From positions 1,116,001 through 1,180,000 of the forward strand of contig NZ_CP072389.1 in NCBI RefSeq assembly GCF_018127785.1: a stretch of DNA of 64,000 nt, written 5' to 3'. Source of the DNA: Prevotella scopos JCM 17725. GTDB taxonomy: Bacteria; Bacteroidota; Bacteroidia; Bacteroidales; Bacteroidaceae. This document shows, piece by piece, positions 40,401 through 59,892 of this stretch. The notes beneath the pieces are model-generated. The model ran no database searches. It worked only from the letters and a program-made list of their open reading frames with translations, and had not been told where the DNA came from. The first letter of the stretch is position 1; every line of letters starts with the position of its first letter. The position numbers were made by a program, and so were the translations under genes.

Positions 40401-42063
40401 TTCCTTGGAAGGTCGTATCTACTTCAACCCCGAAGAGAATGCTTATGAGGTTGCGGACAAGTACATTTCGGGCAATGTAATAGAAAAGGCGGAGCGTATC
40501 GAGTCGTGGCTCTTGGACCATCCCGAACATGAAGAGGCAAAACAGAGCCTTGCCGCCCTGCGTGCAGCCACGCCAACACCCATTCCATTTGCAGACCTTG
40601 ACTTCAACCTCGGTGAACGCTGGATACCCTCAAAGGTCTATGGCAGGTTCGCATCGGAGTTTTTCGGGACGGATATTGGCGTATCCTACCATTCCAACAT
40701 GGACGAGTACTGCATTGTCTGCGACCGAAAGAATGCCAATATCTGGCATAAGTATGCCGTACAGGGGGAGTTCCGCCGTTATGATGGCGTCAATCTATTA
40801 AAGCATGCCCTGCACAATACTATTCCCGACATCAACAAGAGCAAGGAGGTGACGGACAAGGTTACGGGAGAGACCAAGACCATTAAAGTAAGGGACGGAC
40901 ATGCTATCCAGATGGCAAATGCCAAGATTGAGGAAATCAGACAGGGCTTTGTTGATTGGCTCGGACGTACACCTGACACGTTCAAGCAACAACTCTCTGA
41001 CCGTTATAATCGTCTTTTCAACTGTTTTGTGCGACCCAACTTTGACGGCACGCACCAGACGTTTCCCGACCTTGACCTCAGACGATTGGGCATTGCCGAC
41101 CTCTACAAAAGCCAGAAGGATGCCGTGTGGATGCTCAAAACCAACGGTGGCGGCATCTGCGACCACGAGGTGGGAGCGGGAAAGACACTCATCATGTGTA
41201 CGGCTGCCTACGAGATGAAGCGATTGGGACTGGCAAACAAGCCGATGATTATCGGTCTGAAGGCAAACGTATTCGACATTGCTGATACCTTTAGGAAAGC
41301 TTATCCCAATGCTAAGGTACTCTATCCAGGTAAGAACGATTTTAATAAGCAGAACCGCCAACGTATTTTTAACGACATCAAGAACAACGACTGGGACTGC
41401 ATCATCCTCACGCACGAACAGTTCGGCATGATACCGCAGGCCTTGGAGATACAGGAAGCGATTATGCAAAAGGAACTGGACTCAGTGGAAGAGAATCTCG
41501 AAGTGTTGCGACAACAAGGAAGAGACATCTCCCGTGGGATGCTCAAAGGATTGGAGAAGCGCAAGCAGACGCTTGAAGCCAAGTTACAGAACATACAAGA
41601 TAGCATCGCTGAGCGTAAGGACGATGCTGTAGACTTCAAGATGATGGGTATCGACCACCTCTTTGTAGATGAAAGCCACCAGTTCAAGAACCTGATGTTC
41701 AATACCCGCCACGACCGTGTGTCGGGCTTGGGCAATCCTGATGGTTCACAGCGTGCCTTAAACATGCTCTTTGCCATTCGTACCATACAAGAACGGTCTG
41801 GCAAGGACTTGGGAGCCACTTTCCTTTCAGGAACGACCATTTCCAATAGTTTGACGGAATTGTATCTTCTGTTCAAGTATCTTCGTCCGCAGGCTTTGGA
41901 GAAGCAGGGCATCAACAGTTTCGATGCTTGGGCAGCCGTCTTTGCCAAGAAGTCGACTGACTACGAGTTCTCCATCACAAACGACATCATTCAGAAGGAA
42001 CGCTTCAGAACATTTATCAAGGTGCCTGAGCTGGCGGCGTTTTATGCGGAAGTGTGGGAGTAG
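37444..42063 (+). pseudogene. Methylase/helicase gene, 5' part (split by the nested element)
   Basis: The 5' portion of a giant conjugative-transposon gene, starting at the ATG at 37444 (MAYNKKEVLQANTDAI); the frame is open to 37384. It encodes an N-6 methylase-like domain (about 100-310: LDPSAGMGAFAETFARQ, VTSNIPFGDF with an NPPF-like motif), a long linker, and the first half of an SF2 helicase (about 1210-1535: EVGAGKTLIMCTAAYEMKRL as Walker A, FVDESHQFKN as the DExH-like motif). At 42040 the guest element cuts the frame; the last codons before the false stop at 42061 come from the guest. The remaining part is at 59882-61606. Joined, the product would be about 2106 residues. Confidence 0.9.
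42040..42050 (+). repeat. attL core of the nested element
   Basis: TTTTATGCGGA, identical to 59882-59892. To the left is the methylase/helicase reading frame (ELAAFYAE); to the right is guest sequence. This is one of the 11-bp direct repeats left by site-specific integration. Confidence 0.85.
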
Positions 42064-42320
42064 AAAGCAGAAAATGGCATAAAACTCATATCTGACTGAA
42101 ATACAGCGGATATTGCTTTTTTCTTCATCGGGTTGCATTTGAGGAAATAGGCAGAAAAGGGAGCGAAAAGGAGGGAGTTCAGTTACCAAATCGTTCGACA
42201 AACGATGAAAGGAAAAGGACGGCTGAAAGTGGTAACAAAAACGGTGCTTTCTCTTTCATTATCAGTGTTTTGCATCGTTCAAAGTTCCTCAAAGAAGTGT
42301 AATTTTGCAAGTAAAAAACA

Positions 42321-43574
42321 ATGGAAAAAGAAAAATTCAAGCTGCTTTTCTACCTCAAGAGAGGTACGCAGGACAAAAACGGAAAAAGTCCCATCATGGG
42401 ACGCATCAGCGCAGGAAGCTCTATGGTACAATTTAGTTGCAAATGCTCGTGTACTCCTCGTTTGTGGGACAGTCGCAAGAACCGACTGCTGGGCAAGAGT
42501 GCCGAAGCCGTATCGGTAAACAAGGAACTTGACCGCCTTCAGGTGAGTATTCACAAGGTTTATGAGTCTCTTTCGGGAAAATCCGATGCTCGCGTCACGG
42601 CAGAGCGAGTAAGGGAATTGGTGTTCGGGTTGAACAGCGAGTCGCAAGGACTGCTTTATCATACGGGCGAGTATATCAACCGCTTCCGTGAGCGTGTGGG
42701 CATAGACCGCAGCGAACGCAGACTAAAATGCCTGTTGCTCTTCCGCAAGCATCTGGCAAACTTCGTCAGGTACCGCTACCATGTGGAGGATATTCCCGTA
42801 CAGAAAGTGGACACAGCCCTCATCAAAGACTTGGAGGACTACTTCGCCAAAGAAAAGGGCTTCAAGCTCAATACCTCGGCTGGTTATCTCTCCATGCTGG
42901 CTTCCTTGCTCAAAGACCTGCATAAACGGCATATCATTGACACCTATCCCTTCATCAACCATTCCATTCGTTGGGAAGTGGGCACTCCACGTTACATCAC
43001 GAGGGAGGAGGTAAGCCGTATCGCAGCCTTGGGAGAAGACGAACTGCAAGGCTATGAAAAAGTGTCGAGGGATATGTTCCTTTTCTCCTGCCTGACGGGG
43101 CTTTCCTATACCGACGTGTATCACTTGACGGAGCAGCACGTCTTTCACGAAGCGGGAATGACTTGGATACGCAAGCCGAGAATAAAGACGGGCAACGTGT
43201 GCCACATCCCCCTACTTCCCGAAGCCGCTGCCATTATCGAGCGTTATCGGGGCATTCACACGAGGGCTTTCCGACACGAACCGCCCAAGGGGTATCTGCT
43301 GCCCATACCCGGATGCGACACGGTAAACATACACCTCAAAAAGATAGCACGGCTTTGCGGTATTCAGAAAACGCTGACCTATCACATGGCACGGCATACC
43401 TTCGCATCTCAGATGACACTGTCGGAGGGCGTGTCCATTGAGAGCGTTTCCAAAATGCTCGGACACAGTCAAATCAAAACCACGCAAGTGTATGCGGAGA
43501 CATCTCCCGAGCGTGTCTTTCTGGACATAGAGAAAATACTTCCACAACTCGCACATTATCAACTGACCAACTAA
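42321..43574 (+). CDS. Tyrosine recombinase 1 (integrase)
   Basis: A 417-residue site-specific recombinase with an N-terminal arm-binding and SAM-like core-binding half (about 1-215) and a catalytic half (about 225-410). HMARHTFASQ gives the HxxR box, LGHSQIKTTQVYAE gives the second His and the nucleophile Tyr. The box I arginine is replaced by Ser in CLTGLSYTDVYHL, as in IntDOT of CTnDOT, as I recall. It is the first gene after the left end and so likely the integrase of the nested element. A -7 box (TAATTTTG, 42300-42307) lies just upstream. Confidence 0.9.
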   Translation: MEKEKFKLLFYLKRGTQDKNGKSPIMGRISAGSSMVQFSCKCSCTPRLWDSRKNRLLGKSAEAVSVNKELDRLQVSIHKVYESLSGKSDARVTAERVRELVFGLNSESQGLLYHTGEYINRFRERVGIDRSERRLKCLLLFRKHLANFVRYRYHVEDIPVQKVDTALIKDLEDYFAKEKGFKLNTSAGYLSMLASLLKDLHKRHIIDTYPFINHSIRWEVGTPRYITREEVSRIAALGEDELQGYEKVSRDMFLFSCLTGLSYTDVYHLTEQHVFHEAGMTWIRKPRIKTGNVCHIPLLPEAAAIIERYRGIHTRAFRHEPPKGYLLPIPGCDTVNIHLKKIARLCGIQKTLTYHMARHTFASQMTLSEGVSIESVSKMLGHSQIKTTQVYAETSPERVFLDIEKILPQLAHYQLTN

Positions 43575-43586
43575 AACCGCAGAACA

Positions 43587-44870
43587 ATGAAAAGTACATT
43601 TGCCATACTATTCTACATAGATAGAAGCAAGACCAATGAAGACGGACTATGCGTAATCCGTTGCCGTATCACCTGTAATGGAACGTCCTCATCGTTTTCC
43701 ACGCAGTTGCAAACTTCCCCCGACGAGTGGCTTGCCCGAAAAGGGTGCATCAAGGCGACAACAGGTAATTCAAGCGGCATCAATCTGCAACTGAACTCAA
43801 TAGAAGAGTGCTTGCATTCACTCTATGAACGTACATTAAGGGAAGAAAACTATATCACGGCGGAATACCTCAAGGAGCGTTATATGCAGCAAAGTCGCCC
43901 CATGCCAACACTTACGGAGCTATATCAATCCGTTTGTGAATACAAGGAGGAATTGCAGGGCAGAACATTAAGCAAGGCAACTGTCAGGGCTTTTAAGGAC
44001 AGCTACAAGAGTTTTGTTCATTTCCTGCAAGTAAGGGACAGGGCAGACTGTATGCCCACAGAGGTGGACAAGACTTTGCTTGAGGACTATCGCCTTTTTA
44101 TGCTTCGGGACTTGGGAAACAAGGAAAGCAGTGTCGGCAACCGCCTACGCCACTTGCATCAGGTCATTCGCAAGGCATTGCAGGAGCGATACGTTCGTGA
44201 AGACCCTTTTGAACTCATAGACATAGAAACGCCTACCTACGAGCGCAATGCACTTACGGCGGACGACCTGCAAAAACTCTTGGCTTACCGTCCGCACCGC
44301 TCGACAGATAACCATTGCAGACTTATTTTCCTCTTGGGATGTTTCACGGGGCTGGCATTCTCAGACTTAAAGAAACTCCGAATGGACGATGTTTATACAT
44401 TCGGGGATGGGCGTAGGTACATATCGCTCTGTCGAACAAAGACACAGAACAGAAGTATTGTCCCGTTGCTGCCCGTTGCCGAGAAAATACTCGCCATTGT
44501 GAGCCACGGACGAAGGGAGGGGCTTTTCTTTCGAGAGTTTCCCAGCAACAGTAATTTCAATAGAACTATTCAGGAGATATGTATTAAGGCAGGACTGCCA
44601 CCGCATACTCAAGCGACCTCGCACACCGCACGGCACACCTTTGCCACGACCATCTGTCTGGAGAACGGACTTCCGATAGAGACGGTGAGCAAGATGCTGG
44701 GGCATCGCTTCATCTCCACGACCGAGATTTATGCACGGGTGACCAAGAGCAAGATTGCCAAGGAAATGCAACCCCTGATGGGTAGTGAGCATACAAGGGT
44801 ACTGCGTAAAGCCTTACGGCTGTGTCCGTCAAGAACACCGAAAAAGTCAAGTCCCATAATTGGGATGTAA
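43587..44870 (+). CDS. Tyrosine recombinase 2
   Basis: A 427-residue recombinase of the same family, 12 nt after the first. The N-terminal half carries the usual Bacteroidales integrase opening (FAILFYIDRSKTNEDGLCVI). Catalytic motifs are HTARHTFATT (HxxR), LGHRFISTTEIYARV (His and Tyr). Box I reads CFTGLAFSDLKKL, with Ala where Arg is usual. Tandem pairs suggest either two roles (integration versus excision) or a functional pair; which one cuts the 11-bp core is unknown. Confidence 0.88.
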   Translation: MKSTFAILFYIDRSKTNEDGLCVIRCRITCNGTSSSFSTQLQTSPDEWLARKGCIKATTGNSSGINLQLNSIEECLHSLYERTLREENYITAEYLKERYMQQSRPMPTLTELYQSVCEYKEELQGRTLSKATVRAFKDSYKSFVHFLQVRDRADCMPTEVDKTLLEDYRLFMLRDLGNKESSVGNRLRHLHQVIRKALQERYVREDPFELIDIETPTYERNALTADDLQKLLAYRPHRSTDNHCRLIFLLGCFTGLAFSDLKKLRMDDVYTFGDGRRYISLCRTKTQNRSIVPLLPVAEKILAIVSHGRREGLFFREFPSNSNFNRTIQEICIKAGLPPHTQATSHTARHTFATTICLENGLPIETVSKMLGHRFISTTEIYARVTKSKIAKEMQPLMGSEHTRVLRKALRLCPSRTPKKSSPIIGM

Positions 44871-44925
44871 CAGCCGTAATGAATGATTCAAAAAAAAGAA
44901 GTCCAACTTTTTAACAAGAAAAACA

Positions 44926-45411
44926 ATGAAACAGAAGAACAAAAAGGAACTTTCCTACTTCCGATTGAAGTTAAGAAGTTACATGAGTGAGCATCACCCC
45001 GAAAAGTTGCAAGATACGGAGTTTATCACTGCACGGGCAGATATGGCTCTCACAGTTTACTGCGATGCTGTAGCACAAGGCTTTACACACATTGAAGCGG
45101 AGAGCATGGCAAGCGAGGCATTGTATCAAGGCTTGCACTTTTCCAAGTACGATACGCTTATATCCGTGTTGGAAAACGAGTTTGAAAGGGAACTTCCTGC
45201 ACCGCTCCCAGAGAAACTCGTACCTATACTGTTGTCGAACAAGGCTGTTCAAGCCACATTCGACAAGTTCGGTTTGACGGACACATTGGCTTCTGACGAG
45301 CAATACGGCCGTCTTTACACCGAACTGACAGGCACGATAGTGCTGCTCATCGAGAGCAACAATCTGCCAACGGTCAGACTGACGGAGGAAGCAAGCCTGA
45401 AGGCGTTGTAG
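44926..45411 (+). CDS. DUF1896-family protein
   Basis: A 161-residue protein, mostly helical, with ELSYFRLKLRSYMSEHHPEK and HFSKYDTLISVLENEFER, characteristic of DUF1896 proteins found near integrases in Bacteroidales mobile elements. The function is unknown. It follows the recombinases by 55 nt in the same direction and precedes a strong hairpin (45498-45532), so it closes the integration operon. Confidence 0.8.
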   Translation: MKQKNKKELSYFRLKLRSYMSEHHPEKLQDTEFITARADMALTVYCDAVAQGFTHIEAESMASEALYQGLHFSKYDTLISVLENEFERELPAPLPEKLVPILLSNKAVQATFDKFGLTDTLASDEQYGRLYTELTGTIVLLIESNNLPTVRLTEEASLKAL

Positions 45412-45497
45412 GCAAAGGCGGCGCACGCAAAGTTCCTGATGCCGTTTCTTATCGTGCAAAGGTACAACGGCAGCCTGTCTGCCCTGACAAGGTCGAG

Positions 45498-45532
45498 TCC
45501 TGCGGATGGAGAGAAGAATCTCCACCGCAGGA
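45498..45532 (+). terminator. Strong hairpin after the integration operon
   Basis: TCCTGCGG-A-TGGAGA and TCTCCA-CCGCAGGA pair over 14 bp with one bulged base and a six-base loop, followed by TTTCTCT. It lies 86 nt after the DUF1896 stop. The surrounding gap (45412-45711) holds no gene I recognise. Confidence 0.6.
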
Positions 45533-45711
45533 TTTCTCTGTTTCAAGGTGGTATTGCCATTTTCTATATCCATGCGGTCGTATTCATCTCTCCCAACCTT
45601 GCAGGGCTGGGCTGCCGTAGAGAGTATAGGCACGACAAGAATACGGCATACTCAGGCTCTTTGGACGCAAGGCGTAACAACTAACAACAGATAGGACTGA
45701 CGATAATACGG

Positions 45712-45855
45712 ACAATCTATTGTTTGTACAATTTGTTGTCATGACTATCTGTTGTCAAAACTATATATCGTCAAAATAATCTATCGATAAAACTATCTAT
45801 CGACACTTCGACATCTCGATTTGTCGAACTATCGAATTATCGATAAAACAACAAG
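45712..45855. repeat. 16-bp-period direct-repeat array of the nested element
   Basis: Nine in-register 16-bp units from 45712 to 45855, beginning ACAATCTATTGTTTGT, ACAATTTGTTGTCATG, ACTATCTGTTGTCAAA, ACTATATATCGTCAAA, ATAATCTATCGATAAA, ACTATCTATCGACACT and drifting to TCGA-rich units. The second unit is nearly the same as unit 1 of the array at 10434. It lies about 220 bp upstream of the HTH/DUF3408 genes. Spacers are absent, so it is not a CRISPR array. Iteron, partition or operator roles are candidates. Confidence 0.75.
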
Positions 45856-46074
45856 ATAATAAAAGGAACGAGCCGGCACCTCATCTCATTACCGCAATAA
45901 CACAGACGGATTTCCTTTGTTTTTCTATTGCTTTCTCTCTATTTCCCTGCTTATCCTCATTTCTTGCAGTGGTGCTTCCGAGGGGTTACTTTTGCACCCG
46001 AGAAGTACGGCAATGGACTGCATAACAGTTTGTTTGCTGAGTAACAATAAAGTAATCAAAACAAAATTAAGGCA

Positions 46075-46344
46075 ATGAAACTCATTATCATCGACCGCAA
46101 AGCGTGGGAGCGACATCGCTCCGAATTTGCAGACTTTATCCATCGTGTGGAAAAACTCATCGGTAATCCTCCCAAGACCGAGCAATGGCTCGACAACGAA
46201 GCCGTGTGCAAGCGTTTAGGCATCAGCAAGCGTACCCTACAATCATACCGAGATACGGGCAAAATCCCTTTCTCCATGATTGGACATAAGTGTTATTACA
46301 AACAGACCGACATCTGTGAAATGCTGAATGCAGTCAAGGATTGA
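46075..46344 (+). CDS. Excisionase-like HTH protein 1
   Basis: An 89-residue protein with a MerR-like/excisionase HTH (about 44-85): WLDNEAVCKRLGISKRTLQS, then YRDTGKIPFSMIGHKCYY and a short helix. This matches the small HTH_17-type proteins in Bacteroidales mobile elements, some of which act as recombination directionality factors. It lies 20 nt upstream of a second, related gene. The role in excision of this element is inferred. Confidence 0.82.
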   Translation: MKLIIIDRKAWERHRSEFADFIHRVEKLIGNPPKTEQWLDNEAVCKRLGISKRTLQSYRDTGKIPFSMIGHKCYYKQTDICEMLNAVKD

Positions 46345-46364
46345 AATCAAAGAATGAATGAATT

Positions 46365-46679
46365 ATGGCAGAGAATGAAATCATTACGCGGGAAGACCCT
46401 CAGATGCAGTTGTTTTCACAACTGATGGAAGGCACTTTGAAGAAGTTGGAGCGGTATTGCTCTACCGCCCGTCCGATGCTGAATGGTGAGGTTTACCTTT
46501 CGGGTGAGGAGGTTTGCAGCCAATTACGGCTCAGCACACGCACGCTCCAAGAGTACAGAAACTCAGGAACGCTTCCTTTCTACAAAATCGGAGGGAAGAT
46601 ACTCTACAAGCAGAGTGACATACAAGCCATGCTTGAAAAACACTATAACCCGATACCCAAGAAATTATGGCAAGAATAG
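46365..46679 (+). CDS. Excisionase-like HTH protein 2
   Basis: A 104-residue relative of the preceding protein: YLSGEEVCSQLRLSTRTLQE, YRNSGTLPFYKIGGKILYKQ, with the same HTH and wing. It overlaps the DUF3408 gene by 13 nt, indicating coupled translation. The pair with 46075-46344 resembles the excisionase-like genes that accompany integrases in CTnDOT-type elements. Confidence 0.82.
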   Translation: MAENEIITREDPQMQLFSQLMEGTLKKLERYCSTARPMLNGEVYLSGEEVCSQLRLSTRTLQEYRNSGTLPFYKIGGKILYKQSDIQAMLEKHYNPIPKKLWQE

Positions 46680-47176
46680 ATGAAAAAAGGAAACAACGCT
46701 TGGAACAAGCCATTAGAGATATGGGAAATTATGGCGTTAAGCTCCGCAAGCCCGAAGAGTTACCCGATTTTGACCAGCCCTTCGATTATGAAGAGGAAAA
46801 GAGAAGGTTTGAGCCTGTTGATAAAGTTGAGGAACAAAATGACAAGGAGAGTAACAAGGATTTTTCTCAACCGTCCTATCAAGAAACAGCGTTGTCGCCA
46901 ACAGAAAGGGCTACTTCTACCGAAGAATTTCATCAAAGAATGGGAAAAACAAAGGACAGAAAGCAATTATCCGAGTTTCAGGGGAAATATCTCCAGCCCT
47001 TTCGCAACAGCCACCGCAAAGCCGTGTATGTATCAGAGGAAACCCAACGAAAGTTAGACTTCGTGGTGCGGAGAATCGGTGAGCATGGAGCGAGCGTTTC
47101 GGGATATGTCGAACAGGTACTGCGGGAACACCTCGACCAATACAAGGAAGATGTGGAAAGATGGAGGAAACTCTGA
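46667..47176 (+). CDS. DUF3408-family protein of the nested element
   Basis: A 169-residue protein with a charged N-terminus (MARIDEKRKQRLEQAIRDMG), an acidic low-complexity linker and a C-terminal ribbon-helix-helix-like domain (about 115-165: AVYVSEETQRKLDFVVRRIG, SVSGYVEQVLREHLDQYK). It is homologous in layout to TraB (8979-9506). It lies between HTH genes and the oriT-like block, and no ParA partner is encoded in the nested element, so it might work with the host's TraA or alone on DNA; this is inference. Confidence 0.8.
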   Translation: MARIDEKRKQRLEQAIRDMGNYGVKLRKPEELPDFDQPFDYEEEKRRFEPVDKVEEQNDKESNKDFSQPSYQETALSPTERATSTEEFHQRMGKTKDRKQLSEFQGKYLQPFRNSHRKAVYVSEETQRKLDFVVRRIGEHGASVSGYVEQVLREHLDQYKEDVERWRKL

Positions 47177-47271
47177 ATTACTGCATTCCTCGAATGCAAG
47201 CCTACGCCGAGTTACTGTATTCAATGAATGCAGTAACACAGCAGGGGCTTATAATCCCATTTTCTACATCA

Positions 47272-47360
47272 GCAAGGTGTGTCTTTGTACCACAAATTGC
47301 CATTTGTACCACAAAGACCCTTGCCCCGAAAGGGGATTAAATCACTCCAAAGTCGTGATT
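47272..47360 (+). other. oriT: oriT-like element of the nested element
   Basis: The block repeats the design at 10781-10869: GCAAGGTGTGTCTTTGT and ACAAAG-A-CCCTTGC arms, the hairpin CCCC-GAAA-GGGG, and AATCAC-TCCAAAGTC-GTGATT (47340-47360). The last hairpin differs from the host's copy (AATTAC/GTAATT) by a paired change (T-A to C-G) with the loop unchanged. It starts 8 nt before the second mobA gene. It is a probable origin of transfer; the nick site is unmarked. Confidence 0.7.
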
Positions 47361-47368
47361 AGAAAGCA

Positions 47369-47788
47369 ATGAAGAAGCAAAAACAAAAGAAGCCAGACGG
47401 CAGATGTGCCACCTGCCCACGATGGGACAGATGGCACATCAGAATACCTAATTCCGAAGACCAGCAGAAACTTATCAGACTCTATCGCAAGTCGGGAGCA
47501 AAGACAAAGAGCGACTTTGTCCGAGCAAGGCTTCTTGGTGAATCTTTTAAGGTCATCACCCAAGACCCTGCAAAAGAACCTTACTTGGAGAAACTCTCAG
47601 AAATCGTTGCCTTGGCTCATAAGATAGGAGTTCTGTACAACGAAGTCGTGAAAGTCCTCAATACTTATCATTCTGTTGCCACTGCTCAACAACTGCTCGG
47701 CAAACTCGAAACCTATTCCCAAATTCTCATCAGACTACAACAGCAAGCAGTACAACTGACAAAATCCTTTGGGAGTAGAGAAGAATGA
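47369..47788 (+). CDS. mobA: MobA-like accessory protein (no partner relaxase)
   Basis: A 139-residue protein homologous to the host MobA. It shares DRWHIRIPNSEDQQKLIRLY, GAKTKSDFVRARLLGESFKV and the helical C-terminus (AHKIGVLYNEVVKVLNTYHS). In the host the mobA stop overlaps the mobB start; here the equivalent ATG (AATGAATG) opens only a short frame and no relaxase follows. It would need a relaxase from elsewhere, plausibly the host MobB. Region 47789-48006 holds no gene that I recognise. Confidence 0.85.
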   Translation: MKKQKQKKPDGRCATCPRWDRWHIRIPNSEDQQKLIRLYRKSGAKTKSDFVRARLLGESFKVITQDPAKEPYLEKLSEIVALAHKIGVLYNEVVKVLNTYHSVATAQQLLGKLETYSQILIRLQQQAVQLTKSFGSREE

Positions 47789-47970
47789 ATGCTGATAAAT
47801 CATAACACCCATACTCGTATCGTACCGCGAATGTCCAATCCCTCTTTGGATGATACAAAAGGGTCACTTTGAACGATTACATAGGACCAGTTTCAACGAT
47901 TTTTCCACTCTGCCCTAATACTTTATCTTTTGGAAAGTACATTGATAATCAGATAATTATTTCAATAACT

Positions 47971-48039
47971 CCCGATTTGGAGTATTACCCCACATTTATT
48001 ATTTTTTTATTTTGACAATTCCCGATTTGGGGCATTACC
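47971..48039. repeat. Partial tandem duplication of a gene end
   Basis: CCCGATTTGGAGTATTACC (47971-47989) recurs as CCCGATTTGGGGCATTACC at 48021-48039, 50 bp away. On the minus strand the upstream copy encodes the end of the 48007-48459 protein (GNAPNRELSK, stop) and the downstream copy reads GNTPNRELLK, stop. Two substitutions separate the 19-base cores. Confidence 0.6.
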
Positions 48040-48459
48040 ATGACCATTAACAAACACAAAGTCTGTATAATCCCCTATAACTAACGTATCTTTTGAAATT
48101 TTCCGTATTTTGTAATCAACATATGGATAGAGCTTTTCCACAGGATGTGGAAGTTTCCAATAAATAAAAACTCGCATGCCATCAACATCAAACACTTTAG
48201 GGAATAAAATGTCCTGTTGGGAAGTAAATTCTTCATCTCCTTTCTTATTATAAGAATTGAATCTTAAGCCTTCTCTGGCAAATTTAAAAGAAGAACCAAA
48301 ATTAACACCTATCCAATACTTTACACTGTCATCAGTTAATAATTGGATAATTTCTGAATTGCTAAGTTGCCCATTGCCAGATTCCATTGTTTTATGAATA
48401 GAATGGCAAGAGAACATAGTCATTATACCTATAATAAACAATATTTTATTTTGTTCCAT
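48007..48459 (-). CDS. Small putative lipoprotein, unknown
   Basis: A 150-residue protein starting MEQNKILFIIGIMTMFSCHS, a signal peptide with a Cys that could be a lipobox. The rest is beta-rich with no motif I recognise (YWIGVNFGSSFKFAREGL). It is the last gene of the minus-strand haem region. Its C-terminal coding sequence is partly duplicated downstream. I do not recognise the family. Confidence 0.55.
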   Translation of the reverse strand: MEQNKILFIIGIMTMFSCHSIHKTMESGNGQLSNSEIIQLLTDDSVKYWIGVNFGSSFKFAREGLRFNSYNKKGDEEFTSQQDILFPKVFDVDGMRVFIYWKLPHPVEKLYPYVDYKIRKISKDTLVIGDYTDFVFVNGHGNAPNRELSK

Positions 48460-48471
48460 ACACTTACAAGA

Positions 48472-49307: not shown

Positions 49308-49332
49308 TGATTTCCTTATCTGATTATCTATC

Positions 49333-51073: not shown

Positions 51074-51136
51074 TCTTTTCTTTCGTTTTAGTCAATCTGT
51101 TATTTGCCAACAGATAAGAAGATAGTGCAAAAAGCT

Positions 51137-52050: not shown

Positions 52051-54398
52051 TTCTTTCTTTTTAATGATTTTACAATGTCATCAACAAGAAACTCCACTTG
52101 CACATATCCCTTTGCACCGCTGGTGGCAGGAACATTGAACATAGTGATGCCCGACCCCAAGGTGTGGGGCACATAGTTGAAGATGTTATCTACTCCGAGC
52201 GTAACTTTCACTTTGTTGTAGAATGTCTGCACCACTGCCAAGTTACAGAGTGCATAGGTAGGCAGCGTGCAGCGGAAATAGGCATCGTAGCTCTTATGAT
52301 GTTCTTCCACCCACACACGATCTTGCACATCAAAGTTTTTCTCGCCCATGAGCGATGCACTGAAGATGGTTTTCAAGCGGTAGTTAGGCTTGTTATATAC
52401 ATAGTCGATGCTTGCCGTGGCAGCATGTGGCGACGTGGTATTCACTTGTATGCCATCCTGCTTGCTCACGTTTACATAGCTGTAAGTTCCGTTCAGGGTA
52501 AAGTGGTCGAGGAAATGCCACTTCAGGATAGCCTCGATTCCGTACAGACGCTGACTGCTGAGATTGGTGTATTCGAAGTTGTACTGCATATCGTAAATAT
52601 GCCATACGCCCTCTATCTTGTTACGGAACTTATTAATGTAAGCATTTACATTCATGAAGAAACCATTATGGGTGTATTCTGCTCCCAAAGAGAAATAATG
52701 GTTCTTCTCTGGCTTCAGGTCTTCGCTACCCCTTATCTGGAACATTCCGAGATGATCCCAGTTGAAGAACAGTTCCTTGATGCTGGGCGCACGATAGCCC
52801 ATGGAGTAGTTGGCACGTATTGCCCAATGCTCATCAGGCGAATATTTAACTGCAATCTTTGGCATATACATAAATCCGAACGCCTTCGAGAAGTTAGTGC
52901 GCACGCCTGTCGACAGCATCCAATGCTTGTTTGCCGTCCATTCATCTTGCAGGAAGTATTCCGTCTCGTGCAGTGCCCGAGTGGTCATCTTACGGTTTAC
53001 AAATCGGTCGCTGGTGAGTTCATCCGAAGTATGTTCCACTCCAAGTATGATGCTGTGTCCGCTAAAGTAGGTACTTGTCAGTGTGAGACGTGGCTCGAAT
53101 ATTTTACTCTTGTACACCTTCTTGCGTTCATCGATACGCTCGTGCCGTTTGAAACGGTCGTAGAAATCGTTGTGTATGCTAAGGTTTACGGTAAACCAGT
53201 CTTTTACATTATATTTCGCCTTAACGCCTGCCATGAAGTCGCGACTCTGCGAGAAGGTCATGTCTTGTATCAGGTCGTATGAGTTCATGAAGAACATCGA
53301 ACCATACACCTGTACCGACAGGTTTCTGTTAGGCTCGTAATAGAACTTCTGCGCTGCCGAGATATGCTCCGTTCCCTCAATACCCATTGGTGAACGGACG
53401 GCAGTGCCGTTTAGCGTGATGTCGTGAGGGAGGAATGGGTTAGCCTCCTTTGTGTAGGTCTTGCTGTCGTTCTCCGCCTGATACAGATAAAAGGCATCGC
53501 TCTCACTATACCATACGTCGGTTTGTGAGGTGAAAGCCTTGTGCTTCACTCCTGCCGAAAGCCATGCTTGCAGGTTAGGGCGGTCGCTGTTCTTCTCAAA
53601 CATATATAGAAAATCTTTTGGAGACGGTGTCTTGTAGTTGCGCTCGTTCATCTGTGCCCAGCGCATACCTGCCTGAATATCCAATGGTTTGGTCGCTTTT
53701 TTAGAAATAAGATTGATGACCGCACCCGAAGCACGACTGCCATACAGAGTACTGCTGGCACCCTTTACAATCTCCACACGGTCGATGGCGTGCAGATTAA
53801 AGCGTTCGTAGTCGAGGTTGCCTGCCATATCGCCCGTCATTCGTTCACCGTCTTGCAGAAAGAGAACGTGGCGCGCGTCGAGTCCCTGCATCGAGATTTC
53901 GTTGCCGAAACCCACTTTCTGAATGTTGAGTCCTGGTGTCTCTTGTTGCAGGGCATGTTGTAGGTCGCTGTACCCTGCATCAACGAGTGCCTTTCCGCCC
54001 AATACCTGTGTGGTAATGGGCGAAAGTTTTACGGGGCGCTCTGTTCGTGAACCTGTTACAACGACATCGTTCAGGTGCAGCACGTCTTCGCGCATAACAA
54101 TCTTTATGTTGTTTTCCTGTGGCGGCACACTTCCTTTTACGGGGACGAAGCCCGTTGCATGGACATTATAGTATAGTTCCTTTCCCTTTTCTATACTTAA
54201 TATCACCTTGCCTTCAATGTCGGTAATGGTATTCTTAACATCCAACATCTCTTTGCTCGTGGCATATTGCACAGTAGCCCCTACCAAAGGTTGCTGCGTA
54301 TCTTTCTCAAGTATGGTTATCCTTACCCTGCGCTGTGCCTGTGCGCTTATCGCCAAAAGCAGGCAAAGGAGTAAGAATAAGAATCCTTTCTTCTGCAT
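52047..54398 (-). CDS. hmuR: HmuR-like TonB-dependent haem receptor
   Basis: A 783-residue receptor: signal peptide (MQKKGFLFLLLCLLLAISAQA), carboxypeptidase-regulatory-like domain (about 22-100), plug (about 115-225: VKLSPITTQVLGGKALVDAG, and GLDARHVLFLQDGERM), and a barrel to the end. MGYRAPSIKELFFNWDHLGM resembles the YRAP motif of haem receptors. Coupling to hmuY by overlap supports haem as substrate. The upstream terminator (54417-54456) indicates a separate promoter. The other receptors in the window (17606 and 25422) lie with DUF4374 proteins rather than HmuY. Confidence 0.9.
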   Translation of the reverse strand: MQKKGFLFLLLCLLLAISAQAQRRVRITILEKDTQQPLVGATVQYATSKEMLDVKNTITDIEGKVILSIEKGKELYYNVHATGFVPVKGSVPPQENNIKIVMREDVLHLNDVVVTGSRTERPVKLSPITTQVLGGKALVDAGYSDLQHALQQETPGLNIQKVGFGNEISMQGLDARHVLFLQDGERMTGDMAGNLDYERFNLHAIDRVEIVKGASSTLYGSRASGAVINLISKKATKPLDIQAGMRWAQMNERNYKTPSPKDFLYMFEKNSDRPNLQAWLSAGVKHKAFTSQTDVWYSESDAFYLYQAENDSKTYTKEANPFLPHDITLNGTAVRSPMGIEGTEHISAAQKFYYEPNRNLSVQVYGSMFFMNSYDLIQDMTFSQSRDFMAGVKAKYNVKDWFTVNLSIHNDFYDRFKRHERIDERKKVYKSKIFEPRLTLTSTYFSGHSIILGVEHTSDELTSDRFVNRKMTTRALHETEYFLQDEWTANKHWMLSTGVRTNFSKAFGFMYMPKIAVKYSPDEHWAIRANYSMGYRAPSIKELFFNWDHLGMFQIRGSEDLKPEKNHYFSLGAEYTHNGFFMNVNAYINKFRNKIEGVWHIYDMQYNFEYTNLSSQRLYGIEAILKWHFLDHFTLNGTYSYVNVSKQDGIQVNTTSPHAATASIDYVYNKPNYRLKTIFSASLMGEKNFDVQDRVWVEEHHKSYDAYFRCTLPTYALCNLAVVQTFYNKVKVTLGVDNIFNYVPHTLGSGITMFNVPATSGAKGYVQVEFLVDDIVKSLKRKK

Positions 54399-54416
54399 CG
54401 TTTCTTTTTATTATTG

Positions 54417-54456
54417 AAAAAGGAAGTGAAAGCACTCACAGCCCCTCACTTCCTTT
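54417..54456 (-). terminator. Terminator between the lipoprotein gene and hmuR
   Basis: Stem AAAGGAAGTGA (54418-54428) and TCACTTCCTTT (54446-54456) with, on the minus strand, a T-rich tail. It follows the lipoprotein gene 54477-55109 by 21 nt, ending the transcript of LRR, calycin-like and lipoprotein genes. Confidence 0.75.
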
Positions 54457-54476
54457 ATTGTCATATTTGTAACGTA

Positions 54477-55109
54477 TTACAATCCGTGTTCCTTCTTATA
54501 GGCTGCCAAGTCCTTCTCGTATTGGGCAAACTCGGCTTCGTAATTGTTGATACGGTTCTTGTCGATGGTCTGCAAGAAACACTCGGAACGTACGTTCATC
54601 ATGTTGTAATCAACTATGAATGTAATCTGGTTTGTTTTCACATTCAGATAGCCTTCTACACCTGCGCCACTTCCTTGCTGTACTCCGGAATCATCTTTAG
54701 GATTTCCCGTAACGCTACCGTCCTTACCCTTAAACTTTATCCAGCCATCCCCTTTATATTCGTCTTTTTCCCAAGAGTTGAGTTGCATAAACTTACATTT
54801 GCATGAGAAATACACAATCAATGGCATCTTGCCTACGGTAAAGCCATCGAGCGTCAGACGAAGACTGTCCTTCTCCCAATTGAAATTAAATTTAGTAGGA
54901 CATCCTTGGGGCAGGAGGGTCTTATCGACCGTGTTCATTGTCGCTTTTGTGGAAAGGACAATATCTCCTGACAAAATATCCTTTGCCTCTTTTAGGTATT
55001 CCTGAGCGGGGGCTTTTTGTTCCAAATTGTCATCACTGTTACAGGAAGATAAACCCAATGAGAACACTGCCAAGAGGCAAAGGATACATTTTACTGTTAT
55101 GAATCGCAT
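54477..55109 (-). CDS. Secreted lipoprotein, calycin-like or DUF4903-like
   Basis: A 210-residue lipoprotein (lipobox LSSCNSDDN after MRFITVKCILCLLAVFSLGL). The core (about 45-185) is a beta pattern with SLRLTLDGFTVGKMPLIVYF and an acidic-basic helical tail (NYEAEFAQYEKDLAAYKKEH). It resembles the small lipocalin/calycin-like lipoproteins of Bacteroidales. It is co-directional with the calycin-like gene 9 nt upstream. The ligand, if any, is unknown; a surface role in haem capture is possible from location only. Confidence 0.6.
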   Translation of the reverse strand: MRFITVKCILCLLAVFSLGLSSCNSDDNLEQKAPAQEYLKEAKDILSGDIVLSTKATMNTVDKTLLPQGCPTKFNFNWEKDSLRLTLDGFTVGKMPLIVYFSCKCKFMQLNSWEKDEYKGDGWIKFKGKDGSVTGNPKDDSGVQQGSGAGVEGYLNVKTNQITFIVDYNMMNVRSECFLQTIDKNRINNYEAEFAQYEKDLAAYKKEHGL

Positions 55110-55118
55110 GTCGCCTTG

Positions 55119-55589
55119 TTATGGTTGTAGCGTACCGTCAAAAGTAACAGAAGCAGGGAAGACAGGAACAAATTGCCAACCTGCGTATGTGTCAAGAACG
55201 AAATGGAGTTCATTATTTACAAGAGAGCCTGTAAAACTGGATAATTTAATTTTAATGGGTAATCCACCATCCAACAACATCAATTTACCGGCATAACCGC
55301 CTATGGGGGTCGTTGCTGTAACAACTCCGTTGTTGATAGAAACTTTAAGTTCTACTTTGATTGTTCCTGGCATCTTGCCAATAGGTCCCACTGTACCTCT
55401 CAAATCATACAGGTTACCACCAGTGCTTGTCAATGTAAAGCTCTGATTTGTAGCATCATTGTATGATTTCCCATTCATAGTAATGTTACTCAACGTACCA
55501 TTGTAAGTACCTGTCTGCGCATTAGAATTTACTGCAAATCCTAAAATGCTGATTACCGTCAATACGGTAGAAATAAATAAATGTTTCAT
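55119..55589 (-). CDS. Calycin-like secreted protein
   Basis: A 156-residue protein with a signal peptide (MKHLFISTVLTVISILGFAV, then NSNAQ) and a compact beta barrel-like body: GTYNGTLSNITMNGKSY, DLRGTVGPIGKMPGTIKV and FTGSLVNNELHFVLDTYAGW. This is the calycin-like domain pattern of Bacteroidales secreted proteins. It has no lipobox. It sits between the LRR lipoprotein and the other lipoprotein gene, likely in one operon. The lipocalin-type fold could bind a small molecule such as haem, which is not shown. Confidence 0.7.
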   Translation of the reverse strand: MKHLFISTVLTVISILGFAVNSNAQTGTYNGTLSNITMNGKSYNDATNQSFTLTSTGGNLYDLRGTVGPIGKMPGTIKVELKVSINNGVVTATTPIGGYAGKLMLLDGGLPIKIKLSSFTGSLVNNELHFVLDTYAGWQFVPVFPASVTFDGTLQP

Positions 55590-55604
55590 CTTTTTTATGT
55601 TTTG

Positions 55605-56999
55605 TTAATTATTAATTAGTGATGACCATTCAACTCCATCTATGTAGCCACCACCACTGGTCAAGACCTTGAGATACTTCTTGATAAAGTCTTTTGTTTC
55701 CTGTCTGTCAAACACGTCTTGCGTACACGCAAAAGAGGTTTTTTTATCGTAGGTATGAAATTCCGTCAATTCCGGATAGGTAACACGACAATTCGCAGAT
55801 AAACCACCAAGTTCCAAATTGGATATCATCTTAAATTTGGACAAATCTACCTGTTCTAAACTCTTCATATTCGCAAATGTTATCATATAAGATCGCAATC
55901 CGCTTTTTTCCGGTAAAGCTATCTTTTTCAAATCCGGGCATTCTACAAAAACAAGTGAGGAACCACCGGGACCATCCTGTTCCTGCTCAATCGCTCTCTG
56001 ACCAAACAGGGTACTATGGCTTAAATCTATTTCGCTAATACCGCTAACCTTTACCCATAGGAGACCTGTCATGTTTGTAGCATCCTCAAGATTGATGCCT
56101 TCAGAGGCATCCACGTCTGTCAATGACAAGGTCATGAGACCGCTACAGGGTCTCAGGTATGGGAGTTTCGCTTTGTTTGTCAGGTTTACAGTAAGAAGTT
56201 TGCCGTCCCAATAAGGATTGTTCACAATATATTGTACCCCTTCCAGTGTTTCAGCAGTGGCTACTCCATACCACTTATTAAATACACAGGCATTCGACCT
56301 ATCTTTGTTGCTTAACCGCTTGCTGATGTCAATATGAATACCGTCTTCATCAAAGATGCTGGAAAAATATTTTTTGAAATTAGCCCTTATATTCTCATCA
56401 GGTATCTCGCGAATGGTATTGTATTTCTGCAAGTCGCCTTTTGCTGTTTCCATCTTCACGTCTATACTTCCAGACTCAATCTCTGCCTTCTTCTCTCGAT
56501 AGAAACGCACAAGGTCTTTGATGTTGAACTTTGCTGTCTGTGGCAAGTACAATTTTGTGATTTTGTGCAACTGTGTTACGGTTTCATCACCATTCTCTTC
56601 CGTCTTTACATTCACCAGTCCTTCAAAGTCATAAATGTCGTTGCCCGTCAAATCTACACCGGTAATTTGTGCTGGCAGCTGAGCGAAGTCGAAAACAGGT
56701 CCATACCCGTTATTGGAGAGTTTTACATCTTTTAGGTTTGGAAGAATATCAAGACCGCTGAGATCCTTCAGGTTTGTACCGCTAAGGTCAAGCGATGTGG
56801 TATTGTTGGCCAAATCGTTGAGTTCCAACTTACCGTCTTTGTCGAACTGATAACCTTTCGATTTCAACACAGTCATCAATTCTGTATTTTTAAGGGAGTT
56901 TGTGCTGTAATGAACTGTATTATCATCACTGCTACATGAGGCAAGTCCCATCACAAGGAATACCAATACTGGTAATGTTAAATTCTTTACTATTTTCAT
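55605..56999 (-). CDS. Leucine-rich-repeat surface lipoprotein
   Basis: A protein of about 464 residues from the ATG at 56999 (MKIVKNLTLPVLVFLVMGL), with lipobox LASCSSDDN. The frame is open to 57188, but the signal peptide and a -7 box at 57030-57037 place the start at 56999. Leucine-rich repeats occupy about 60-150 (LDLSGTNLKDLSGLDILPNL, LTGNDIYDFEGL) and again around 300-420 (LTLSDVDASEGINLEDATNM-like). Such proteins bind other proteins at the surface. It is the first gene of the LRR-calycin-lipoprotein operon. The binding partner is unknown. Confidence 0.8.
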   Translation of the reverse strand: MKIVKNLTLPVLVFLVMGLASCSSDDNTVHYSTNSLKNTELMTVLKSKGYQFDKDGKLELNDLANNTTSLDLSGTNLKDLSGLDILPNLKDVKLSNNGYGPVFDFAQLPAQITGVDLTGNDIYDFEGLVNVKTEENGDETVTQLHKITKLYLPQTAKFNIKDLVRFYREKKAEIESGSIDVKMETAKGDLQKYNTIREIPDENIRANFKKYFSSIFDEDGIHIDISKRLSNKDRSNACVFNKWYGVATAETLEGVQYIVNNPYWDGKLLTVNLTNKAKLPYLRPCSGLMTLSLTDVDASEGINLEDATNMTGLLWVKVSGISEIDLSHSTLFGQRAIEQEQDGPGGSSLVFVECPDLKKIALPEKSGLRSYMITFANMKSLEQVDLSKFKMISNLELGGLSANCRVTYPELTEFHTYDKKTSFACTQDVFDRQETKDFIKKYLKVLTSGGGYIDGVEWSSLINN

Positions 57000-57029
57000 T
57001 TTCGATAATAAATTAATTGTTTTGAGTTG

Positions 57030-57037
57030 CAAAGGTA
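57030..57037 (-). promoter_or_regulatory. Candidate -7 box (TACCTTTG on the minus strand) for the LRR operon
   Basis: The minus strand reads TACCTTTGC 31 nt upstream of the LRR ATG at 56999. It is the strongest consensus match in the nested element. Confidence 0.5.
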
Positions 57038-57099
57038 GGAGCCTTGTTTGGATTTCACAATACCTATTTCTTATGATTTTATTTTTATTTTTGCAATCC

Positions 57100-59601
57100 T
57101 TATTTATTAGGATTTTGCTGTTTGTGAGAATTTTTATCTGTTTTACTTTTGGTAAGGCTAAAACGGTATCGCAGCGATACGAGGGCATAACTATGTATCT
57201 GCGGTCGGAAACTCTCGTGATACCCGTAACCTGAAACGGAACGGTTGAGGTCCCTTCGCCTATTCAGAATGTCGTTCCATTTGAATGAGAGCGTGGCTTG
57301 TTTCTTCCTGAGAAAACGCCACGATGCTCCCACGTTCAATAGCCACTGGTCATCATCTGTGGTTGAATAGGTTCCTCGGCGCAGATGACAATTTGCATCG
57401 CCCCATATTTCAATGTCGTGGGGAAGTTCTACTGTGCCGCTGATGCCACAGTCGTAGTCAATGGTATTTACATGGGTGTTTGTCAGTAAGTTGTTGGAAC
57501 GGTAGAGTTGCCAACTGGCGTGTAGGTCAATATTCCCCCATTTCGGCTGGTAGTTCAATCGTAGGCTAACCTCATTACCCGTTGTATGTGTCTTGCTCTT
57601 CAAAGCATTACCGTACGTTTGTTCGTGAAAGAGATAGACGTGGTTTTTAAAAGAAGTTCTCATAGTACCAGAGAGCATCAGACGCTTCACTTGTTTCTGC
57701 CATTGCAGCATCCCGTCCACAGAATAATTTCCGTTGATATTGACAGTTCTGTATGTCCGTGCGCCAGTATTTGAGTCATACGTTACTTCCTCTGCAAAAT
57801 CATTGAACGAGTTGTGGTAATTGCCCATAAAGGTAATACCATATTTTCTCTCATTTAATCTGATGGACAGTTGTTGTTGATAGGCTGGCTTCAACTGCGG
57901 ATTGCCTATCTTCACGGACAGCGGGTTGCTCTTGTCATCAAGTGTCAGCAAAGCCTGTATGGAAGGCTGTTGTGTGTTTCCGTTATAACGCAGTTCAACT
58001 TCTATTTTTCCGTTGTTCCACTTTGCGCCGAACTTGGGCTTGTATTCCGTAGCCTTGACTGTATAGTCCACTGTTTCCGAATTGTGTTGCCGGCAGATAT
58101 TCCTGCGTTGCCATTCTACATCAATGCCACTGTTTATCTTCCATTGCTTACCCTTATAATCCATTCTCAGGGTGAGTTCCTGCCCACATATAGATAGTGT
58201 GTTCTCATAACTTAGGCTATCTATGTATGGTCTATTCGGTATAGTATAGTCGTAAGTGTTGCTTGTGTTTCTATCCTCTTCGTGATGCAGTCCGTACCCT
58301 GTCTGCAATTTCAACTGTTTGCCAAAAGGATGGGTATATTGCAATGATATTCTGCTTTCGTTGCGCAGGGTGGGCAGTTGTTGGCAAAGATTGCGCAACA
58401 GTAGTGAATCTCCGCCCACAGCGTTGCGCAGGTGGTGGAATTTCGTCAGTGAAAGGCTGGTATTATTAGTTTCATTCGAGTTACCGCCAAGTGTCGCCTT
58501 CACGGTAAATGATGCCCCAGCCTTGCCAATCCGCCGTGTGAGGTCGGCAGATACATGGTAATTCTTTCCATTGCTTTTTGTGTTATTTCGCAGCGTTCCC
58601 GAGGTCAGCGTGTCCGCAGCCGTATTGCGCTCATATAGGTATGTTGTGTTGTCAGTCAGGTTGTCTGACCGTCCGAAGTTTCCATTTGCACTTATATTCA
58701 GCAAAGTCTTTTTGTCTATGTTATACTGCAGATTTATGTTTGCGGCATTACTGTGATTCTTGCTCAAGGAAAGCAGCATTGATTCCCGATATTTTGTTCC
58801 CGATGAAAGATATTGCTCATCATAGTCATGATTCTCGCTTCCATTGTGGAAGGCATTGAGTGAGAGGCTTGCATTGAGCGTAATTTTCTTACCAAATTTC
58901 TTCACGATATTGCCCGACAATATGTTTTGGAAATTGTTTCCCCCAATGTTCATATTACTAAGATTGTCAGAGCGCAAAGTCAGCGAGGTGTTTTCGCCAT
59001 CGGCATTGAATAGATTGCCCTGTACCTCATCCCTGCGTCTGTCGCGATTGCCGTGTTCAGCCGTTAGTGTTCCTGTCAGGCTGCCATTGTAGGTAGATTT
59101 GGTCTTGATGTCCAGCACATAATTGTCGGCACCATCATCTACTCCCGTCATTTTCTCCAATGCGCTGAGCATGTCATACAGTTTCAGTAGTTCCACTGCA
59201 TCGGTTGGCATATTCTCCAACGCTGCGATAATGTCGTTGCCCATAAAGGTCTCGCCATTGATGTTTACGCCGTTCAATGGCTTTCCTTTGAATGATAGTT
59301 GCCTGTTCGCCTTGTCGTATTCCATGCCCGGAATATTCCTGATTAAGTCTTCCAAGTTAGCACCTTTCCTTACTCGAAGGCAATCAGTATTGATAAACGT
59401 GGTGTCTTTTCTTATGGAAAACAATTTCCGCTGTCCAATAACTTGAACTTCATCGAGTTCTATCGTTTTATGTAATGAAGAAACATGTTTTCGAGTAGGG
59501 TATATAGTATCACCCACAACTAAATTCAAAATAGTAGCATTAGCAGTGGGAAACAGCAGAAGTAGAATGATGAAGATTAAAAGAATTCTTTTGATTATCA
59601 T
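57100..59601 (-). CDS. TonB-receptor-like outer-membrane beta-barrel protein
   Basis: An 833-residue outer-membrane protein. A signal peptide (MIIKRILLIFIILLLLFPTA) precedes a plug-type domain (about 65-190: ANLEDLIRNIPGMEYDKANR, KPLNGVNINGETFMGNDIIA) and a long barrel ending SLRYRFSLTKSKTD. It resembles the outer-membrane beta-barrel family next to TonB receptors, lacking a usual N-terminal regulatory domain. It is the first gene on the minus strand near the right end of the nested element. The substrate is unknown; location near haem genes suggests uptake or display. Confidence 0.75.
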   Translation of the reverse strand: MIIKRILLIFIILLLLFPTANATILNLVVGDTIYPTRKHVSSLHKTIELDEVQVIGQRKLFSIRKDTTFINTDCLRVRKGANLEDLIRNIPGMEYDKANRQLSFKGKPLNGVNINGETFMGNDIIAALENMPTDAVELLKLYDMLSALEKMTGVDDGADNYVLDIKTKSTYNGSLTGTLTAEHGNRDRRRDEVQGNLFNADGENTSLTLRSDNLSNMNIGGNNFQNILSGNIVKKFGKKITLNASLSLNAFHNGSENHDYDEQYLSSGTKYRESMLLSLSKNHSNAANINLQYNIDKKTLLNISANGNFGRSDNLTDNTTYLYERNTAADTLTSGTLRNNTKSNGKNYHVSADLTRRIGKAGASFTVKATLGGNSNETNNTSLSLTKFHHLRNAVGGDSLLLRNLCQQLPTLRNESRISLQYTHPFGKQLKLQTGYGLHHEEDRNTSNTYDYTIPNRPYIDSLSYENTLSICGQELTLRMDYKGKQWKINSGIDVEWQRRNICRQHNSETVDYTVKATEYKPKFGAKWNNGKIEVELRYNGNTQQPSIQALLTLDDKSNPLSVKIGNPQLKPAYQQQLSIRLNERKYGITFMGNYHNSFNDFAEEVTYDSNTGARTYRTVNINGNYSVDGMLQWQKQVKRLMLSGTMRTSFKNHVYLFHEQTYGNALKSKTHTTGNEVSLRLNYQPKWGNIDLHASWQLYRSNNLLTNTHVNTIDYDCGISGTVELPHDIEIWGDANCHLRRGTYSTTDDDQWLLNVGASWRFLRKKQATLSFKWNDILNRRRDLNRSVSGYGYHESFRPQIHSYALVSLRYRFSLTKSKTDKNSHKQQNPNK

Positions 59602-59605
59602 TTTG

Positions 59606-59613
59606 CAAAATTA
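59606..59613 (-). promoter_or_regulatory. Candidate -7 box (TAATTTTG on the minus strand) for the barrel gene
   Basis: TAATTTTG on the minus strand lies 4 nt upstream of the annotated start of the 833-residue barrel gene, so either the leader is very short or translation starts slightly downstream. Confidence 0.35.
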
Positions 59614-59709
59614 CCATTGTTCATAGATATATGCAATACCTTAAAATGGCGATTTTATAGAATTAGAAATGTCTAAGGTTGATTTTCATTGAAAAAACAA
59701 CGTAAATAC

Positions 59710-59740
59710 TTTGCTTATATGAATTATATCGCTATCTTTG
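59710..59740 (+). promoter_or_regulatory. Outward-facing promoter at the right end of the nested element
   Basis: TTTG (59710-59713), 19 nt, then TATCTTTG (59733-59740) form a complete Bacteroidetes -33/-7 pair on the plus strand. It points out of the nested element across the right attachment core (59882) into the 3' part of the split gene. No guest gene lies downstream before the core. It may give a transcript of the 3' half or, in a circular form, read toward the recombinases. Confidence 0.55.
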
Positions 59741-59881
59741 CAACATCAAACAGAGAGTTCTTTGAGACTTTGCAGAATAAAGAAAGGGAAAGAAACTCGC
59801 TCGTTTCTTAGTCGTTCACCTTATCAGATTATATATTCTGCTTTTTATTAGTAATCAGTCGATTACATTCACCCCCATTAC

Positions 59882-59892
59882 TTTTATGCGGA
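59882..59892 (+). repeat. attR core of the nested element
   Basis: TTTTATGCGGA, identical to 42040-42050. After it the sequence GATTTGCGATTTTCG continues the methylase/helicase frame. It marks the right boundary of the integrated guest. Confidence 0.85.

Follow-up and report, generated by a model that had tools for sequence, protein, structure and literature searches.

A probable satellite element without a recognised relaxase splits the DarB-like methylase/helicase gene of its conjugative carrier in Prevotella scopos

Introduction

Mobile elements nested within integrative and conjugative elements (ICEs) are the closest described counterparts of the locus examined here, a guest element lodged in the methylase/helicase gene of a larger carrier element, within a 64,000-nucleotide stretch of the 3.3-Mb, three-contig genome of Prevotella scopos JCM 17725 (NZ_CP072389.1, positions 1,116,001 to 1,180,000; hereafter, the window). 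Streptococcal integrative mobilizable elements (IMEs) termed IME_SNF2 insert by means of serine recombinases into snf2, a methylase/helicase gene of Tn5252-family ICEs (PMC5357655, PMC7168690), and Tn1806-like ICEs, which reside in snf2 of ICESa2603-family ICEs, circularise and move both with and without their carrier (PMC12942858). Most IME_oriT elements, which have a tyrosine recombinase (PMC5704250), are integrated in a helper ICE, from which they excise and move separately, the helper being both home and vehicle (PMC7563843). MGIVflInd1 and MGIVchHai6 carry their own integrase, no relaxase, and a helper-like origin of transfer (oriT) or an auxiliary relaxosome protein (PMC5704250), and, according to the same 2017 review, every Bacteroidetes IME known at the time belonged to the class with a relaxase. 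In Prevotella intermedia, MTnPi1-3 have tandem tyrosine integrases without mutual homology and 11-bp attachment (att) sites, with PCR-shown excision of most copies, and the authors thought it only possible that MTn-like elements had entered CTnPi2 and CTnPi3 (PMC4755523). Lastly, mhgA of Bacteroides GA1 ICEs, a methylase/SNF2-helicase gene encoding 1659 amino acids, is broken by transposase insertions; it is disrupted in 31.2% of 125 GA1-only strains versus 11/15 strains with GA1 and GA2 ICEs, and its loss is statistically linked to GA1/GA2 ICE co-residence (PMC8102008).

In the literature searched, which left subscription papers mostly outside, we found no description of the present guest family or of its combination of features. 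We read the guest, with considerable confidence, as a site-specific satellite of its carrier's conjugative-element family, namely an IME that lacks a relaxase of its own.

Results

The 11-bp repeat TTTTATGCGGA occurs twice in the window, at 42040-42050 (the attL core) and at 59882-59892 (the attR core), with no third copy, and both positions agree with those reported in an initial annotation of this DNA. By chance, a mean of 0.03 matches is expected, and two copies arose in 0/100 shuffled windows. The guest between the repeats (42051-59881), which is missing from contiguous relatives, measures 17,842 bp when one repeat is counted. The flanks comprise (i) the 5' part of the broken gene (37444-42050, + strand), which ends in the core repeat and has DUF2958, Eco57I, and SNF2-related domains (Pfam), and (ii) the 3' part (59882-61606, + strand), which has Helicase_C (Pfam). 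Joined with a single repeat, they form a frame of 6381 nt with one stop, at its end, encoding 2106 amino acids from ATG 37444; the restored frame and the length of its product are thus as the initial annotation had them. Left unjoined, the left half reaches a stop three codons inside the guest (LAAFYAE-VWE-stop). The target had also been described as part of the transfer machinery, a label that we do not retain, as both halves instead match PHROG 10089, a DarB-like antirestriction family, and no transfer role is established. By these matches, the broken gene is a DarB-like N6-methylase/SNF2 helicase gene and not a proven transfer gene.

The initial annotation had suggested a search with the joined sequence. 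A 278-nt joined query was contiguous across the joint in 10/12 plasmid-collection records with a match; the two exceptions are Prevotella sp. oral taxon 299 F0039, in which a guest lies at the joint, and an Emticicia record that matches query bases 1-126 only. An intact gene is present in P. nigrescens FDAARGOS_1486 (1561-7845 of L005, 2094 amino acids), where it is followed by AbiEii/AbiEi genes as in the window. The F0039 guest lies at the same site, and its right 9.6 kb is 99.7% identical to the window guest, whereas its intA and intB share only 82% and 75% DNA identity with the window's. Matches to the target query were present in 69/399 family genomes and in 62/398 genus genomes, at least 21 of the latter with a copy broken exactly at the core edge; as two candidates were scored per genome, the occupied counts are lower bounds. 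Among 34 genomes, picked from those with matches and scored almost fully (so that the counts are not prevalences), left-only matches ended at the last core base in 19/20, and right-only matches started at the first core base in 29/33. Six complete guests read at this position (site A) span about 10.5 to 34 kb. The genome and locus lists overlap, G401, G345, G136, G299, and G640 seeming to be the same genomes as L107, L086, L094, L108, and NC_022111. Site A is, on these junctions, used repeatedly in several genera of oral bacteria by close relatives of the guest.

The relation between guests and their targets points the same way. Pairs of guests that share 97-100% identity over 2.9 kb occupy target genes with an identity of only about 69-72%, as in Porphyromonas uenonis and Prevotella sp. 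HJM029 (guest 100%, target 71.3%). In 351 of 378 pairs compared (one locus was too short, and the pairs are not independent), guests were at least 95% identical in 83; among these, guest identity exceeded that of the host flank by 5 points or more in 75, and the reverse held in none. Without the L098-L103 pair, an artefact over one base, the guest was closer in 74/82 of the high-identity pairs. Near-identical guests in targets of about 71% identity therefore indicate that insertion was both precise and repeated. Together with the natural empty sites and the many sites broken at the same bases, this upholds the precise nested integration that had been proposed from the window.

The core itself helps to place the strand exchange. 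We compared 14 occupied and 13 empty sites, picked by a core-containing pattern, and added six further occupied loci from outside the pattern. Right-hand core bases 1-3 read TTT in 20/20 occupied loci (the whole core TTTTATGCGGA in 18/20), whereas TTC starts the core in 12/13 empty targets and in 20/26 left-hand cores; the right-hand core therefore always takes base 3 from the guest, and the left-hand core from the target. Three divergent targets differ in core bases 4-11: in L073 and L079, the left-hand core carries the guest letters and the right-hand core those of the target; L075 shows the reverse. Strand exchange is thus placed by these loci within core bases 4-11, in a pattern as expected of staggered exchange.

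The two tyrosine recombinases noted earlier at the left end of the guest were found at 42321-43574 (IntA, + strand; PF00589, Arm-DNA-bind_5, SAM_5) and at 43587-44870 (IntB, + strand; 26% identity to IntA). IntA matches at E<=1e-150 were present in 25/396 genus genomes, with four candidates scored per genome. When genome contigs were scanned with an IntA alignment, 44 loci were recovered, most of them from Prevotella, Hoylesella, Hallella, Porphyromonas, and Tannerella, and in 26 of the 44 the left junction lies at the same position of the target gene. In two more (L077 and L102), the left flank is unreadable and the junction in the gene is visible from the right side only; five (L088, L089, L093, L105, and L109) were placed in no class or were not members. 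Comparison of these loci shows an association of the IntA/IntB module with insertion into the DarB-like carrier gene at its F-Y-A-E codons.

Two groups of loci have complex flanks. In Prevotella multiformis (L068, L117, and L118), the left flank is foreign and the right end lies in the helicase gene 13.5 kb on; L068 is perhaps a recombinase-made deletion or rearrangement between core-like sites. In Prevotella pallens (L081 and L114-L116), the left junction lies in a coupling-protein gene fragment at K-I-F-Y-A-E, residue 597, and in L081 the first guest-type right end beyond it is 33 kb away and is joined to the helicase gene, which makes this a rearranged or composite locus. Because no remainder of the coupling-protein gene follows and that right end is in the helicase gene, we withdrew L081 as a clean insertion into the coupling-protein gene. 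A use of secondary sites solely where the main site is absent or already filled was not upheld in the nine genomes checked, which are too few for a conclusion. In two of them (L068 and L081), the target gene contains the right end of the very same element, and one genome has another copy in the main site; of the remaining six, two lack a match, two give matches of only 71-75%, and two have an apparently empty site (with incomplete IntA matches).

The same gene contains a second integration site, site B, which is empty in the window (60095-60108) but is entered in relatives by sister guests that face the other way. P. nigrescens F0103 has a gene that is uninterrupted at site A and broken about 215 bp downstream by a guest in the opposite orientation, with the junction repeat GATTAYGCCCGCAA over codons T-D-Y-A-R-K. 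In the 34 chosen genomes, left-only matches at site B ended at query bases 143-149 in 28/29, and right-only matches started at 130-148 in 19/21, in two registers. The DUF1896, HTH, and DUF3408 proteins of site-B guests are about 80-92% identical to those of the window guest, whereas their MobC has 47-64% identity (and was not found in one guest) and their integrase pair only 38-39% to IntA and 33-34% to IntB. Guests occupy both sites in G136, G056, and G401, and in G299 site B is filled, with the right junction alone found at site A. By these comparisons, site B is used, in the other orientation, by a sister lineage that has the same backbone but diverged integrases.

Behind the integrases, on the + strand, the window guest encodes a DUF1896 protein (44926-45411), a backbone gene common to site-B guests; an excisionase-like HTH_17 protein (46075-46344; PF12728, PHROG 66 excisionase/regulator); a second HTH_17 protein (46365-46679); and a DUF3408 protein (46667-47176). 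Next come a putative oriT with a hairpin (47272-47363, + strand), which is 84% identical to carrier positions 10782-10872 over 93 alignment columns, and MobC (47369-47788, + strand; PF19514), which is followed by no recognised relaxase gene. Among the loci, 23 distinct guest copies of the oriT-like stretch (the window's being identical to that of L037) and two carrier copies were identified by similarity. When 20 guest copies and the two carrier copies were aligned, they shared a long hairpin with nearly invariant arms, and double changes affected only 3/29 pairs; the case therefore rests on conservation and not on covariation. The stretch is best read as a look-alike oriT that the carrier relaxase would serve.

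The remainder of the guest lies on the - strand, with small open reading frames (ORFs) and two tandem paralogues (49333-50232 and 50201-51073) of no assigned family (together 48007-51073), followed by cargo (51352-59601) that comprises HmuY-like, TonB-dependent receptor, DUF4903, calycin-like, LRR, and outer-membrane barrel proteins and is haem/iron-uptake-like by family names. An ORF at 49414-50193 (+ strand) was rejected as a gene, being antisense to one of the tandem paralogues. The site-A guest of G401 has the window's cargo proteins at 99-100% identity, this antisense ORF excepted; the cargo of other guests differs greatly and, by family names, includes peptide maturation and export or restriction, as well as RHS-type proteins. 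No type IV secretion system (T4SS) domain was present in the scanned guest ORFs. The guest has several features of an IME, in that it is integrated, has att repeats at both ends and its own recombinase, and lacks a complete conjugation apparatus.

The conserved right end of the guest family (59733-59881) is a sequence common to several superfamily elements, with five further, partly weak, matches in the same genome (L058-L062), of which L058, L059, and L060 look like right ends of further superfamily elements. This right end has a promoter-like look, but a guest promoter driving the 3' gene half was dropped as a general explanation because in site-B guests the right end faces the gene from the opposite side. 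The genome also holds a second guest of the family outside the helicase gene, at about 946.5-965.5 kb of G000:C1 (L110 and L111; IntA 86%, MobC 88%), whose interior includes a coupling-protein C-terminal fragment from residue 590, near a K-I-F-H-A-E motif.

The carrier is, by its genes and ends, a conjugative element at tRNA-Asp. Its integrase lies beside two tRNA-Asp genes to the left of the window, and a second copy of the tRNA-Asp 3' end, a 24-bp end repeat that differs by one mismatch, is present at window coordinate 67140. The carrier limits are accordingly placed at about -8371 to 67150 (about 75.5 kb, including the guest). Its CTnDOT-like ICE features comprise Tra genes, relaxase, coupling protein, integrase, and end repeats; in the window, these are represented by conjugation genes that include TraM, TraJ, and TraG of CTnDOT type (940-7440, - strand), a putative oriT recognised by its hairpin and its likeness to the guest stretch (10782-10872, + strand), and genes for MobC, relaxase, and coupling protein (10887-14632, + strand). 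A topoisomerase gene (35270-37351, + strand) adjoins the target gene. Carrier cargo at 15297-32023 includes two TonB receptors, four ABC transporter genes, and AraC and TetR regulators, so that outer-membrane uptake genes are supplied by the carrier as well as by the guest. Among the ORFs scanned, none was recognised as a drug-resistance gene. An AbiEii/AbiEi toxin-antitoxin pair (61663-63325) lies directly 3' of the broken gene, as it does at the P. nigrescens empty site. In three occupied lineages, dN/dS is about 0.02-0.06 for both halves of the broken gene; the gene has thus spent most of its history unbroken, and the insertions are recent or reversible.

Discussion

The arrangement described above suggests a cycle in which IntA and/or IntB would excise the guest as a circle, restoring the carrier gene, with the HTH_17 proteins as likely directionality factors. 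The carrier relaxase, together with the guest MobC, would then nick the guest's look-alike oriT, and the carrier coupling protein and T4SS would move the guest. In the recipient, the guest would re-enter the carrier gene or, less often, another core-like site, while a resident guest could also ride inside its carrier. The sister lineage would do likewise at site B, about 215 bp further on and inverted.

We weighed three other explanations. That the break arose by chance rearrangement or is an artefact of assembly, with a short repeat on either side, might be entertained because the repeat has only 11 bp, but it is scarcely credible, and we ruled it out, since the same junctions and empty sites recur in many separately assembled genomes, among them one circular record marked complete. 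An insertion that was precise and is now inactive, carried only as part of the larger conjugative element, would account for worn relatives such as the 10.5-kb version in G092, which lacks part of the barrel gene, for the truncated IntA copies that exist, and for the rearranged flanks of L068 and L081. It is nonetheless unlikely, as near-identical guests at the same position in divergent carriers of several genera require recent separate insertions, and as both recombinases in the window are full length with the active-site H-x-x-R, H, and Y in place.

It is somewhat less likely again that the guest is mobilised by an unrecognised relaxase of its own, like canonical Bacteroides IMEs. Most guest copies retain MobC, a number of guest ORFs have no family assignment, and L080 has mobC plus a relaxase, all of which would fit. 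However, no relaxase domain of a known family was recognised in the scanned guest ORFs; nothing in the window guest matches the carrier relaxase, nor does anything within 2.4 kb after the oriT-like stretch in 22/23 guest copies, and among the 44 IntA loci L080 alone has a match. The guest thus combines the absence of a known-family relaxase with an oriT-like stretch resembling that of its helper, two features that it shares with relaxase-less IMEs (MGIs).

Several observations nevertheless weigh against a relaxase-less satellite served by its carrier. On the side of mobilisation, (i) a match to the carrier MobC is missing in 3/23 guest copies; (ii) in L080 (Prevotella conceptionensis), the guest is joined at the oriT-like stretch to carrier-like mobC and relaxase genes; (iii) the G299 region has two relaxase-like matches (29-31%) that may or may not belong to the guest; (iv) a relaxase of an unrecognised family could still lie among the unassigned guest ORFs; and (v) the oriT is putative, being proposed from its position, its hairpin, and its similarity to the carrier's. 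The L080 relaxase gene is itself split by about 3.7 kb. On the side of integration, the left junction lies elsewhere in 9/44 loci (L069, L070, L076, L083, L092, L099, L100, L106, and L108), and L068 and L081 have a foreign left flank with the right junction in the gene; site specificity is therefore strong but not absolute, and rearrangements occur. The low dN/dS is compatible with recent as well as with reversible insertion, and excision, the circular form, transfer, nicking, and any exclusion effect are predictions drawn from sequence. Both recombinases also read TGLS/TGLA at one motif. Canonical tyrosine recombinases have an arginine at this position, and IntDOT shows the same departure.

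The guests have crossed genera and so provide a path by which mouth Bacteroidales exchange genes. A single gene with two docking sites, both located to the base, would offer a clean system for studying recombinase specificity, satellite-helper dependence, and a suspected MhgA-like exclusion role. We also considered a broader and doubtful proposal, in which a relaxase-less satellite family in oral Bacteroidota lives off one helper gene with two opposite docking sites, and in which breaking the DarB/MhgA-like gene would lower a barrier to other incoming elements and so gather helpers, with excision restoring the barrier. The type of target gene known from nested elements in streptococcal ICEs has been chosen again in another phylum, by unrelated recombinases, a convergence that raises the questions of which function the methylase/helicase has and of how carriers can do without it.

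Each of the known systems differs from the guest in some respects. MGIVflInd1 and MGIVchHai6 are proteobacterial and are not described in PMC5704250 as nested in their helper, while IME_oriT elements differ in that they target oriT and use their own relaxase. MTnPi1-3 resemble the guest in their tandem tyrosine integrases and 11-bp att sites; they are, however, reported with relaxase and primase-type genes, neither of which was recognised among the guest ORFs, and are not described in the source as targeting a DarB-like gene. The mhgA gene and the present target are both often-broken methylase/SNF2-helicase genes of Bacteroidales ICEs, a likeness drawn by description only. Tn1806-like ICEs share the nesting in a methyltransferase/SNF2 gene but have triple serine integrases and 4-bp repeats and are themselves conjugative, in which the Prevotella guest differs. 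Finally, IME_SNF2 elements and the guest are both nested in, and split, the conserved methylase/SNF2-helicase gene of an ICE, the former by means of serine recombinases and the latter, in another phylum, with a tandem tyrosine pair, an 11-bp core, and two sites in one gene.

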